Shown one piece after another: positions 7,364 to 24,814 of a DNA stretch of 34,497 nucleotides; position 1 is the stretch's first letter; each line of letters opens with the position of its first letter. The translations under genes were made by a program, and so were the position numbers. Source of the stretch: Acidobacteriaceae bacterium (GTDB lineage: Bacteria; Acidobacteriota; Terriglobia; Bryobacterales; Bryobacteraceae); contig JAFAYL010000023.1 of assembly GCA_019240405.1 (NCBI GenBank), forward strand, positions 1 through 34,497, in the 5' to 3' direction. The notes under the pieces are model-generated. The model did no database searches, had not been told where the DNA came from, and was given only the letters and a program-made list of their open reading frames with translations.

Positions 7364-8298
7364 ATTCATCGAGCACGAAAGAGCCGCCCGGAAAGGACAA
7401 AGGAATACGTGGCTGCGCATGAAAACCAGCGCCACATCCCTTCAAGCGTTTTTTCGGAAAGAAAACCGTTTACCTGATCACGCAACTCGATGTTGAAAAG
7501 TACAAACTATGGCGTTTAGAGGGCGACGCGACGACAACCGCGGTTAAGCCGATTACGGTCCGTCATGATCTGGATACGCTCTCGCTGTTCTTTAAGTGGG
7601 CGGAGCAAGCAAGATACGGACGAGGCAACTTAGTCAAGAACGTGAAGAAACCGCCAGAGGGAAATACGGAACGCATGCACATCCATACGGTGAATGAGGA
7701 GCGACGGTATTTCCAATTTTTAGAGCAGCACAGTGTAACTGAGAACAGAAATCTCTACGATTTGGGTCGCTTGATGATTAACCAGGGACTCCGCCCTGAT
7801 GAAGCGATGGCTCTGGAGAAATCTGCGGTCGATCTCGATCATCGTCTCCTCTGGGCGACAAAATCCAAAACAAAAAAGGGTCTCCGCGGGCTCAAGTTGA
7901 CGGTAGAAAGTTGGCAAATTGTAGCGCGGCGGATGGGTGTCGATAGCAAGTGGATTTTTCCCAGTTCACGCCGACCGGGGCAGCACATCACAAAGCTGAA
8001 CTGTCCCCACGACCGGGTGCTCGCGAAACTTGGGATGAAGTTCGTCCTCTACGATTTCAGACATACCTTCGCGACGCGAATGGTCGAAGCGGGAATTGAT
8101 CTCGCAACACTAAAGGATGTGATGGGTCATACAGACATTCGCACCACGATGCGGTACGTGCACGTCACGCGAGAGCACCAGGATCGCGCAATGGAGAAAT
8201 TCGAGGCAGAACGTCTACGCATCGAGAAGAAATACGAAGAAGATCAGCGGCGACAAGCGTCAGCGATAAGCATACCCCGAACGGAACGTTTGAATTAA
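7158..8298 (+). pseudogene. Tyrosine recombinase/phage-type integrase, split by a 1-nt frameshift
   Basis: Two frames together encode one site-specific recombinase. The first (7158-7496) carries the start of the arm and core-binding region (YRFTFRGQDVFQATGLEDT, IDEFIEHERAARKGQ). The second resumes as KKTVYLITQLDVEKYK and runs to 8298. Removing one T from the T6 run at 7449-7454 joins them as LQAFFGKKTVYL and gives 379 codons, a normal length. In that fused numbering the catalytic residues are Arg212 (GLRPDEA), Lys in the TKSKTKKG hairpin, Arg301 and following His in YDFRHTFATR, His324 (GHTDIRTTMRY) and nucleophile Tyr333. The first His of the HxxR box is Tyr. As written the enzyme is broken, but a homopolymer sequencing error or +1 slippage would restore it. 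It should move the surrounding island. Confidence 0.85.
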
Positions 8299-18511: not shown

Positions 18512-19834
18512 CTATGCGATCTCAACGAAATCCGCACTGCCCCCGAAGCCTATATTCAGCTCGGCAGTTCGCCACGGTGATCCAACGCAGTTTTTGATGA
18601 CGGTTGCCTTCGTCCGACACCCAACGACGTTATTAGCCCTCTTTTCCCCCGCCATCCGTGCAAGCTCTAACCGTATAGAGCAAAAATGGGCGAGGGCGTG
18701 TCCGCCTGGAGAGATCTTCACCCTTCCGAAGACTTCTTCGTGATTATGTCGAATTTGGTTTAAGAGGAGAACACAAGTGTTGCTTTGGCTTGCGGCAGAG
18801 GCAATTCTTGGCAAGGTCCTGGCGAGCAATCGTCCGATCTCGCCGCTAAACTCACCGTGCGAAGCTTCCAGCGCATCGCCCGGGACTAGTGCGGCAAGAG
18901 TGTCCAGAATTACGAGAGCAAACTCACCAGATCTGATAATTTCCAACATTGACTCGAGCGTGTCTAGAGCCTTTGCGGTTCTCAAAATCAACGCACGATC
19001 GAGGTTTATTCCCTGGAGGCGAGCCCACGACAGATCTATCTTGTGCTCGGCATCGAGGAACGCGATACAGTTGCCGCCTTGCTGCGCGCGACCCGCGGCT
19101 CTTAATGCAACCGTTGTCTTACCTGAACTCTCTTTACCGAAGATTTCAATGATTCGTCCCCGAGGAAACCCTCCCGTCTGGAGCGCGGCGTCAAGTGCCG
19201 GCCAGCCACTCTTGACGACACTCTCGGGCTGTTCGCTCACAACCCGGACGCCTAGTTGCTCCAGCCTTAATCGGAGATCTGCATTCCGTACAGAATCGGC
19301 TAGCGCCAGCGGGGGAAGGTTGAATTCTACCGTGGGAGCGTGCTCGGGTGAAATTAGCTCACATGTGTTCAGTGAGCGCGACAGCCCGAGCCGAAGACGA
19401 AAATACTCAGATCGCAAGGCGAGCCGGTCTCGCCAAATCGAAAGGCTTTCACGTAAGTATGCGGGTAACTCACTCCAATCCCCTGCGAGTGCCATCCTGG
19501 CCCGCTTGTATTTTCGAGAGAGTTTGATCTCACTTTCGAAGAGCTCAAGTTCGTGCCATAAAGGTTGGTTTTCTGCACCATGCGGCACTTCATCCCTGCG
19601 GTCACTCGCTCTTTCGTCCTCGAACTCGGGTTCAACGCGCGCCTTCCCGGGCTGCTGAAATGCGTTCTTCTGAATCCGCTCTTCAGGGAAAACAGCGGAT
19701 ACTGCTTCGAGTATCTCAGGAAGTTGTACCTTGCCGTGAACTGCAGAAGAACTGCCGGGACGTTGCGGTGGGCTCAGATCTCTACTCAAAGTGCTACCGG
19801 ATTTGCCCTTTTTTTTGAGAGAGTTGGAACCCAC
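18512..19834 (-). CDS. RecA-like recombinase/ATPase with long N-terminal extension
   Basis: Residues about 205-440 match the RecA core: Walker A GKESSGKTT (233-241), DAEH with catalytic Glu263, Walker B FALVILDTLAALVP (Asp311), LLLNQIRHN (359-362, equal to the NQIR before loop L2), PGGHALAHF and NVVGCRTKATVIKN. The order and spacing follow E. coli RecA. The RecA polymerisation helix is replaced by ~200 residues: about 90 disordered, then a helical region (LFESEIKLSRKYKRARMALA, LRSEYFRLRLGLSRSL). The acidic C-terminal domain of RecA is missing; the protein stops at the core. This is therefore a paralogue, not the housekeeping recA. Start is GTG 19834 with a distant GGAG. ImuA of the imuA-imuB-dnaE2 mutasome is also RecA-like, but no partner genes are present. 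A role in ssDNA handling is inference. Confidence 0.75.
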   Translation of the reverse strand: MGSNSLKKKGKSGSTLSRDLSPPQRPGSSSAVHGKVQLPEILEAVSAVFPEERIQKNAFQQPGKARVEPEFEDERASDRRDEVPHGAENQPLWHELELFESEIKLSRKYKRARMALAGDWSELPAYLRESLSIWRDRLALRSEYFRLRLGLSRSLNTCELISPEHAPTVEFNLPPLALADSVRNADLRLRLEQLGVRVVSEQPESVVKSGWPALDAALQTGGFPRGRIIEIFGKESSGKTTVALRAAGRAQQGGNCIAFLDAEHKIDLSWARLQGINLDRALILRTAKALDTLESMLEIIRSGEFALVILDTLAALVPGDALEASHGEFSGEIGRLLARTLPRIASAASQSNTCVLLLNQIRHNHEEVFGRVKISPGGHALAHFCSIRLELARMAGEKRANNVVGCRTKATVIKNCVGSPWRTAELNIGFGGSADFVEIA

Positions 19835-22899: not shown

Positions 22900-24204
22900 A
22901 TGGCCATGCGGGTATTCTTACTCTTTTCAGCTCTCGCTGTAGCATTTCCATTCATGACTCCGGAGCGCCCCGAAGCGCCTCTCGGCTTTGATAACAAGAG
23001 CAACGGTCTGGTGGATGATCCAACACACCAGGCAGACCAAGAGAAATTTGATGAGATTGAAGCTCTATCGGACGGCCTCGGCCCGATTTATAACGCACAA
23101 TCCTGCCGTGAGTGTCATCAGAATCCAACCTCTGGCGCTTCGAGCCAGATCACAGAGCTGCGGGTCGGGCACTTGGGACCGGACGGCCGTTTTCGCAATC
23201 CGGATATTCCGATCAATCACGGAACAGAAATTATCAAAGGTCGCACGCTCGTAAACGATCGCGCGATTTGTCCCAACGCTGCCTTTCCCGATACGGACGT
23301 TCAAGAGCGAGTTCCAACAACCGAGACCATCCGAACCAATCGCATTGCGCTGAATCTTCTCGGCGATGGTTTCGTCGAAGCCATTCCCGATGAAGCGTTG
23401 ATCGATCTCGCGCGTTCGGAATGCAAAAGCACGCACGGCAGAATCTGCGGAGTCGCAATTCGCGTTCCCATAATCGAAGCTCCAGGGCAGAGCGCCGTGG
23501 GCCGGTTCGGCTGGAAAGACGAGCACGCGAGCCTCTTATCGTTCTCCGGAGATGCTTATTTGAACGAAATGGGAATCACGAATCCGTTATTCCCGGACGA
23601 GGTCACAAACCTCTGCAACACCGTGTCCGAGCCAAACGACACGCCAGGTCCCGACGGACTTTCTGACATCGATCACTTCGCCCGCTTCATTCGAGCTTCC
23701 AAGGCTCCGCCGCCAGATTTGACAGTAGCCAACACGCCGCCCGCGAAAAGAGGATCAGAGCTGTTTGACAAAATCGGTTGCGCAACCTGCCACATTCCAA
23801 CGATGACTACCGCGCCCGCCGGAACGAAAGTCAATGGCGGCGCTTTCACTGTCCCTGCCGCGCTCGCAGACAAAACCTTCCATCCGTTCAGCGATTTCCT
23901 CCTCCACAATGTAGGAACTGGCGACGGCATTGTGATTGCCGTGGTCGAGCATTTTGGGCGCATGGCAAGAAACATGCCCCATGACGTGCAAACCGTCGAT
24001 TTTGAGAAGAGTAGAAACAAGCTCCGCACTCCTCCTCTCTGGGGTGTTCGCTTTCACTCGCGTTTAATGCACGATGGAGCTTCCGTGACTCTAGTCGACG
24101 CGATTCACCGCCACGCCGGAGAAGCCAGTCTACCCGCGCATAGATTCCGCGAGCTTTCGCGCGCCGATCAGGATGCCCTCATCGCATTCTTGAAATCGCT
24201 GTAG
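22900..24204 (+). CDS. Di-haem cytochrome c oxidoreductase (DUF1111/DHOR family)
   Basis: A 434-residue periplasmic protein with a signal peptide (MRVFLLFSALAVAFPF). Two haem c motifs are present, CRECH at residues 69-73 and CATCH at 294-298, in the spacing of di-haem oxidoreductases related to MauG and bacterial cytochrome c peroxidases. Family motifs include LGPIYNAQSCRECHQNP, NLLGDGFVEAIPDEAL, GRFGWKDEHASLLSFSGDAY, NEMGITN and the C-terminal TPPLWGVRFHSRLMHDGAS and DAIHRHAGEA. Members of this family are often called thiol oxidoreductases in databases without proof. GGAGG six bases before ATG 22900 supports the start. The selenoprotein-like gene begins 34 bases downstream, so both may share a transcript and possibly a periplasmic redox role; that link is inference. 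Confidence 0.88.
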   Translation: MAMRVFLLFSALAVAFPFMTPERPEAPLGFDNKSNGLVDDPTHQADQEKFDEIEALSDGLGPIYNAQSCRECHQNPTSGASSQITELRVGHLGPDGRFRNPDIPINHGTEIIKGRTLVNDRAICPNAAFPDTDVQERVPTTETIRTNRIALNLLGDGFVEAIPDEALIDLARSECKSTHGRICGVAIRVPIIEAPGQSAVGRFGWKDEHASLLSFSGDAYLNEMGITNPLFPDEVTNLCNTVSEPNDTPGPDGLSDIDHFARFIRASKAPPPDLTVANTPPAKRGSELFDKIGCATCHIPTMTTAPAGTKVNGGAFTVPAALADKTFHPFSDFLLHNVGTGDGIVIAVVEHFGRMARNMPHDVQTVDFEKSRNKLRTPPLWGVRFHSRLMHDGASVTLVDAIHRHAGEASLPAHRFRELSRADQDALIAFLKSL

Positions 24205-24238: not shown

Positions 24239-24814
24239 ATGCGGCGCGGGGTTACATTGGTCGTCGTTCTTCTTGCTCTTGGCGCGTTGGCGTGGTTCTT
24301 ATTGCCCGGCCATAAAACCCCACCCCAGCAACCAGGCCTCGCTGACCTGAGCTCCCAATCCCTTCCGGAATTGAAAGCCACTTTCAATCGGTATTCGAAC
24401 GACCTGCGGATCGTGTTACTTCTTTCGCCAACTTGAGGGGAGTGCTTGCGGGGGGCCTCCGCGATGCAACAAGTACTGCAGCAGCATCCCCAAGCGCGCC
24501 TGCGCGTCTTCGCCGTTTGGGAGCCGGTGCGTTTCGTCGACTGGCAGAGGCCGTCCACAGCAAACCTGGCGCGTCTCTCCGATCCACGTGTCTCCCAGTT
24601 CTGGGACCACGATCACCTTCTCGCTAACCAAATCGCCCGCGATGCTGCGGCCGACCAAACCCAAGCCAACTGTTGTGAGGCCAAGAGTATCCTTTTCGAT
24701 CTGGCAGCCGTCTACCCTGCCTCCGCGACCTGGTCAGATCACCTTCCGCACGCTAACGTGTTTGACGGGCCAATTGTGGACATCATTCCCAAAGTCCAGG
24801 CCGCTCTTCCCTAA
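24239..24814 (+). CDS. Predicted selenoprotein, membrane-anchored thioredoxin-like UxxC protein
   Basis: Two apparent ORFs, 24239-24436 and 24446-24814, are one gene if the TGA at 24434-24436 is read as selenocysteine. The 191-residue product has an N-terminal membrane anchor or signal (MRRGVTLVVVLLALGALAWF), then KATFNRYSNDLRIVLLLSPT, Sec66, GEC, LRGASAMQQVLQQHPQ, RVFAVWEPVRFVDWQRPS, DPRVSQFWDHDHLLANQ and a Cys-rich NCCEAKSILF. A strand followed by UGEC and a helix is the thioredoxin-fold active site with Cys changed to Sec (UxxC). Sequence on both sides of the TGA is in the same frame with similar character, and a bSECIS-like hairpin follows directly. A standard caller would truncate it. 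Likely periplasm-facing redox protein; partner unknown. The alternative is a pseudogene with one nonsense codon. Confidence 0.82.
24434..24468 (+). promoter_or_regulatory. Sec UGA codon and bSECIS-like hairpin
   Basis: After the TGA, T43-G-C pairs with G-C-A68 (24443-24445 with 24466-24468), an internal loop follows, and GCGG (24448-24451) pairs with CCGC (24459-24462) around a 7-nt loop GGGGCCT. Bacterial SECIS elements need a small hairpin starting about 16-37 nt after UGA with a G among the first two loop bases; here 15 bases separate UGA from the loop and it begins GG. SelB would bind it. Folding was done by eye. Confidence 0.6.

Follow-up and report, generated by a model that had tools for sequence, protein, structure and literature searches.

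The window analysed here, 34,497 nucleotides of an Acidobacteriaceae genome, holds a reading frame that is split by a single TGA. This raises the question of whether the TGA ends a gene or is read as selenocysteine (Sec), and what the product of the undivided frame would do.

The split frame and the TGA column

The frame is located at 24239-24814 on the plus strand, starting with an ATG and ending with a TAA stop at 24812-24814. The TGA at 24434-24436 is preceded by 65 and followed by 125 open codons, as the initial annotation had described. Read through as Sec, the gene encodes 191 amino acids, an assignment based on the frame, its homologues and the predicted fold. On the basis of the frame and the homologue alignment, the TGA is codon 66 and supplies the U of a UxxC motif (RIVLLLSPT-U-GEC-LRGAS), the second Cys of which is the TGC of codon 69 (24443-24445), invariant across 53 aligned rows. 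A 122 amino acid ORF with a TTG start, present at 24446-24814 in the mechanical ORF list, is the fragment that a gene caller might report. Flanks of at least 65 open codons upstream and at least 119 downstream are found at 6 of the 1078 TGA stops of the window in six frames, this one included. Openness alone is therefore unremarkable, and it is homology that lifts this TGA above chance.

A search of 60 near genomes, including its own, yielded nine matches, seven of them with one in-frame TGA. In a sample of the phylum, 50 of 396 genomes (about one in eight, own included) had a match; the 56 matches listed carried one TGA in 39 cases, two in 2 and none in 15. Thirty of these 56 became loci and were read, and the remaining ones enter as stop counts alone. 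Among the 38 loci from both searches (own included), the site is TGA in 28, a Cys codon (TGC or TGT) in 8, Arg in one and Asp in one, and the Arg and Asp variants have lost the second Cys as well. These two variants (L010, SPTRPES; L011, SPTDPQA) come from the same family of genomes and have no MerT-like neighbour within 1.5 kb; the genome of the former (G020) retains SelB above cut-off.

An 84,980-species collection was also scanned with a WEP-motif pattern that is independent of the TGA, giving 55 loci. The TGA is present at the site in 54 of them; the contig of the last locus (L115) ends 5' of the motif, and this locus was left out of the counts. By their titles, all but one of the loci belong to Acidobacteria/Acidobacteriota or to a group that we take to lie within this phylum. 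The exception (L093, VFZE01000084.1) belongs to a metagenome-assembled genome (MAG) with the title Acidimicrobiia; the presence there of DF, MerT-like and UxxC genes points to gene transfer or a mis-binned contig.

Counting seven duplicate loci once, we obtained 85 non-redundant rows, which show U in 75, Cys in 8, Arg in one and Asp in one at the TGA column. Sec or Cys thus occupies the site in 83 of 85 homologues, in agreement with the proposal that the TGA stands where a thioredoxin-fold protein has its active-site Cys. The finding of the same TGA in many separately assembled relatives argues against a base error in the window. A quick tree of the 85 rows with a midpoint root implies at least seven changes at the Sec column and places the window row together with eight Sec rows that are linked to MerT (SH-aLRT 91; fork drawn open). 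The window protein is 28-47% identical to 52 relatives, and the residues invariant over the 53 aligned rows include F49, S63-P64-T65-U66, C69, G72, W94-E95-P96, D101, D123 and D154, giving the family signature SPTUxxC...WEP...D...FWD. Viral contigs searched with the window protein and plasmids searched with a relative (L063) yielded no relatives.

The hairpin behind the TGA and the Sec machinery

A bSECIS-like hairpin of eight pairs follows at 24446-24464 on the plus strand. The initial annotation had placed a hairpin with a GG-starting loop 15 bases after the TGA; the hairpin and its loop, GGC (24454-24456), are there, and the distance is corrected to 9 nt for the 5' arm and 17 nt for the loop. 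PMC13188914 gives as bSECIS rules a loop of 3-9 nt, a stem of 4-16 bp, a spacing of 16-37 nt, a G within the first two loop positions and a minimum free energy of -7.5 kcal/mol or lower. The window hairpin, with its GGC loop, 8 bp, 17 nt spacing and -9.5 kcal/mol for 19 nt, agrees with these rules. Folded from after the TGA, its extended stem reaches -14.1 kcal/mol, and in a free fold of the 54 nt of window sequence from the TGA another pairing is better by 0.9 kcal/mol. A search for RNA families at the window gene gave three sub-threshold matches and none above threshold.

To learn about conservation of the hairpin, we aligned 55 sequences ungapped from the TGA onward. Over the eight pairs, 98.0% of the 440 cells are paired, where column shuffles give 92.2% and a slid hairpin 38-64%. 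Both sides have changed in 37 cells, compared with an expectation of 13.3 from shuffles. At pair 17-27, 36 of the 55 sequences have G-C and the other 19 have A-U, and none breaks the pair. Here the change of the 5' base replaces Arg by Gln, whereas the 3' base is the third position of a Ser codon and its change is silent, so that protein constraint leaves the match unexplained. Covariation counted by pairs is in no excess over shuffles, either for pairs with two-sided change (2 vs 2.1) or for further pair types (6 vs 6.5). Four pairs are invariant, and 7 of the 55 sequences break pair 13-31.

In 74 Sec sequences (L035 not among them), the 24-nt stretch has a mean energy of -10.1 kcal/mol, compared with -5.7 kcal/mol (sd of null means 0.23) in synonymous codon shuffles whose codon usage was drawn from the distant portion of the genes, and 58 of the 74 are as stable as the top 5% of the shuffles made from them. 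When codon usage was taken from the SECIS stretch itself, a contaminated null, 74 sequences gave no signal (mean z -0.35).

The genome of the window (4.45 Mb in 63 contigs, 95.8% complete) encodes all four components that the initial annotation had suggested looking for, each above its curated cut-off: SelA (411 bits, cut-off 22.8), SelB (363 bits, cut-off 242), SelD (349 bits, cut-off 125) and tRNA-Sec (75 bits, gathering threshold 47), which ARAGORN also reports as tRNA-SeC with anticodon tca. Two of the findings that the initial annotation had named as refuting, a genome lacking selB or tRNA-Sec and homologues with neither Cys nor Sec aligned to the TGA, were thus looked for and not encountered. 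A SelB census over 50 genomes found 44 above cut-off, Cys carriers among them, and did not separate Sec carriers from Cys carriers. The six below cut-off comprise four TGA carriers (G005, G019, G301 and G325, all drafts of at least 510 contigs), the genome of the Asp variant (G028) and one non-carrier. Taken from sequence, the TGA is almost certainly read as selenocysteine at residue 66; SelB and the hairpin 3' of the TGA would let tRNA-Sec insert it.

The fold, the MerT-like partner and the role of the window copy

AlphaFold2, supplied with the 53 aligned sequences, gave a model of high quality (pLDDT 94.0, pTM 0.85), in which a helix at residues 2-21 is followed by a thioredoxin-like order of elements, with a strand at 56-62, Sec66 and a helix at 67-82. 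The fold that it predicts with confidence is thioredoxin-like, preceded by a single N-terminal helix and with Sec where the active-site helix begins. This agrees with the thioredoxin superfamily, in which the redox pair opens the first long helix of a beta-alpha-beta unit. This helix (24242-24301, plus strand) is hydrophobic and is probably a single membrane anchor, with an orientation that we infer. The description as a membrane-anchored UxxC selenoprotein is thus supported for the fold and the hairpin, and the periplasmic side is the likely one, since there is one N-terminal helix and since relatives stand C-terminal of MerT. In MerTP fusions, MerP lies on the C-terminal side of MerT and is periplasmic.

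Comparison of the model with PDB by Foldseek returned five matches at E of 0.001 or below (4.6e-4 to 9.4e-4), with a TM by query of 0.37-0.46 and prob 1.00. They are ResA, DsbE, GPx8, one thioredoxin-like protein and one secreted disulfide oxidoreductase. The family profile matched thioredoxin-class proteins alone among PDB sequences, at E 0.28 or worse. The window protein matched nothing in Pfam or NCBIfam up to E 10, a range in which HMMER filters drop most matches above 0.1, and did not reach the cut-off of the NCBIfam and Pfam models of known UxxC selenoprotein families. Thioredoxin-class matches among its relatives are few and weak: in 33 members, out of 38, that were scanned at E 0.1, PF00085 matched four (best 5.5e-4), TIGR01126 four (best 0.0089) and PF13462, PF01323, NF047695 and TIGR02738 one each (0.047-0.098), and PF08534 matched none. 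The stronger matches among the 33 were to MerT, HMA and CopZ models (PF00403, HMA, in two members), which we take to be fused parts.

Around the 54 named loci, three genes recur, mostly on the same strand, encoding a MerT-like membrane protein with a CC pair, a MerR-type regulator matched by three MerR Pfam models and a DF-family protein (NF049942 in L063, 105 bits, cut-off 70). By tblastn, every one of the 54 loci has a MerT-like stretch, either fused to the UxxC domain or directly upstream in the same orientation, and the match stops 87-242 nt short of the TGA; MerR was found in 26, DF in 24 and an HMA protein in 4. The MerT queries were neighbours from the same loci (17 of these clustered on their own), and the 54 of 54 hence rests on similarity among neighbours together with the model matches. 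In at least eight loci the MerT-like and UxxC domains share one open frame; the structure model of one such fusion (L112) is poor, with pLDDT 65. In four of the 54 loci (L063, L078, L080 and L092) a small membrane protein is also encoded near the gene; it contains a CCSSPA motif, and its only match, to LiaF-TM, is below cut-off.

Leaving aside the genome of the window, six of the 60 near genomes have the TGA gene, and strong MerT matches (E of 4.1e-32 or below) were found in exactly these six; the MerT profile has eight rows, of which one came from a member of this set. Seven weaker matches (4e-14 to 4e-4) lie in other near genomes, including the genome with the Arg variant. In the phylum sample, a MerT match lies within 1.5 kb in 9 of the 50 carriers (coordinates read by eye), and a further search adds a tenth, weak one. 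The MerT link is therefore a minority in the wider phylum, about four fifths of the sampled carriers having no MerT nearby. In the main clade, where the adjacency itself is plain, a functional partnership of the UxxC protein with the MerT-like protein is very probable.

As a whole, the explanation that we favour, with somewhat better than even confidence, is that of a selenoprotein with an anchored UxxC thioredoxin-like domain and a MerT-linked role in soft-metal or redox chemistry. The product would be a thioredoxin-like domain on a single anchoring helix that presents its Sec-x-x-Cys pair, most likely in the periplasm, the fold being modelled and the side suggested by topology. Selenium has a high affinity for mercury, and the Se/S pair may serve to bind a soft metal ion, for example Hg(II), or to reduce it. 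The metal might then be passed on to the two vicinal Cys residues of the MerT-like protein, or these might be kept reduced, with the UxxC domain standing where MerTP fusions have MerP. For this service in the place of MerP we would give somewhat less than an even chance.

As to which metal, the gene names suggest mercury, but the MerT-like protein of L063 scores 37 bits against the cut-off of 180 of true MerT models and has no Pfam match at E 0.01; the ZntR, MerR and CueR models score alike, all below cut-off, on the regulator of the same locus. MerA is above cut-off in 2 of the 60 near genomes and in one of six carriers, and not in the genome of the window. A palindrome, TTGACTCTGGAGT..ACTCCAGAGT, at a symmetry of at least 0.8 occurs in 17 of the 54 loci, and presumably resembles the zntA operator (ZntR) and not that of mer. 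Since the MerT scores are under cut-off, MerA is mostly missing and the operator is ZntR-like, mercury itself is no more than a candidate, and the putative substrate is a divalent soft metal. In L063 and other loci, the MerR-type gene is preceded by TTGACTCTGGAGT..ACTCCAGAGTGTA, an extended near-palindrome that resembles the operator of a MerR-type regulator.

A more ambitious version joins the DF protein, the MerT-like protein and the Sec-x-x-Cys thioredoxin into a MerA-independent soft-metal system of Acidobacteriota that works as a trans-membrane relay; we consider it rather unlikely. Such a relay would connect a cytoplasmic thioredoxin-like DF protein through the CC pair of the MerT-like protein in the membrane to the periplasmic Sec-x-x-Cys thioredoxin. 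Its cargo could be the metal ion or electrons, the latter making it a minimal DsbD-like conduit, and solo copies such as that of the window would be members recruited to another client.

The window copy stands outside such an operon. No MerT, MerR or DF gene lies nearby, and neither a single-sequence nor a profile search detected MerT in the genome; membership of the window copy in a mer operon was accordingly rejected. The copy probably acts alone, and would be a solo periplasmic thiol/selenol oxidoreductase or metal binder. On its 5' side lies, as a neighbour outside the conserved system, a gene for a di-haem oxidoreductase (DHOR; 22900-24204, plus strand; PF06537, 124 bits), and the product from 25477 onward reads by eye as ATP synthase subunit a. 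Elsewhere in the window, also by eye, an ORF at 7642-8298 reads as a tyrosine recombinase/integrase preceded by short odd ORFs, a possible mobile element, and an ORF at 18512-19834 on the minus strand resembles a RecA-type ATPase that is extended at its N terminus.

The solo copies bear on an alternative in which the selenoprotein is a general periplasmic thiol-disulfide reductase (TlpA/ResA-like) that shares no more than its regulation with the MerT-like transporters; under metal stress it might, for example, maintain exported Cys proteins in the reduced state. ResA and DsbE are among its nearest folds, most carriers of the phylum sample lack a MerT match nearby and the window copy is itself solo; against this, the unbroken MerT adjacency of the main clade and the fusions with MerT-like and HMA domains speak for a dedicated metal role. 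We regard this alternative as a real possibility, at roughly one chance in three.

The initial annotation had instead suggested a possible redox pair with the di-haem oxidoreductase, whose gene, on the same strand and ending 34 nt before the selenoprotein ATG, is possibly co-transcribed with it in the window genome. A DHOR-like stretch is absent, by tblastn, from 86 related loci (two of them doubles, several short), as is an AtpB-like stretch, whereas it is the MerT-like gene that recurs in close relatives. This partnership was rejected on the absence of DHOR and is improbable.

That the TGA is a real stop, in a pseudogene or between two genes with a frame held open by chance or decay, has in its favour the frequency of comparably split frames in the window and the divergence of the window copy, but was rejected as highly improbable, since 75 of the 85 rows have TGA, and not TAA or TAG, at this one column and the protein is conserved on both sides of it, the hairpin is conserved and partly covarying, and the genome has the full Sec machinery.

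Comparison with known systems

The UxxC thioredoxin-fold selenoproteins catalogued in Table 1 of PMC13188914 include Trx (PF00085), Thiol:disulfide interchange (PF13098), GOS_C (NF045500) and SaoT (NF040730). Our selenoprotein with the anchored UxxC domain shares with the known bacterial ones the UxxC pair, the thioredoxin-like fold, a bSECIS directly 3' of the UGA and Cys homologues at the site, and differs in having few and weak model matches and its own signature. In Table 1 of this catalogue of 119 families (2026), we could match no entry by name or model. Two further groups with UxxC, GOS 'Trx-like 3' (weak cd02950) and 'Redoxin family protein', are named in PMC2398784 and PMC13188914. 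The UxxC domain seems to represent an unnamed selenoprotein family, although it may coincide with one of these two. In the titles and abstract openings of the literature searched, no prior description of the family or of its MerT link appeared among the matches listed. The present analysis thus adds a selenoprotein family without an apparent Pfam or NCBIfam model, the genes of which would be called as fragments, and the MerT link offers a concrete case where selenium may be built into metal handling. At least one carrier record, KB906767.1 (Acidobacteriaceae bacterium KBS 96), is not titled a MAG, and the idea may therefore be testable in culture.

Two known families, NF045683 (MerT/CopZ fusion-like heavy metal transport selenoprotein) and NF041115 (UxxU metal-binding (seleno)protein), likewise connect selenoproteins with MerT-like or HMA domains. 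They match three and two of the 33 members, respectively, and since such a match is also found in a neighbour protein, we take the matches to concern the fused MerT-like or HMA parts and not the UxxC domain. The DF family (seleno)protein NF049942 is a separate small protein encoded next to the UxxC gene in 24 of the 54 loci, and its copies in which the motif was read have Cys, not Sec.

With ResA and DsbE, the top Foldseek class, the window protein shares an extracytoplasmic thioredoxin-like fold. The values for ResA (2f9s; TM by query 0.42, 8% identity) and DsbE (3gl3; 0.43, 12%) support a shared fold class and no closer relation. From MerT, MerP and MerTP the system differs in that the UxxC domain is thioredoxin-like and not HMA, that the MerT-like protein scores below cut-off and that MerA is mostly missing; it resembles them in the MerT-like neighbour with its CC pair and in the fusion of the UxxC domain at the C-terminal side, as with MerP in MerTP.
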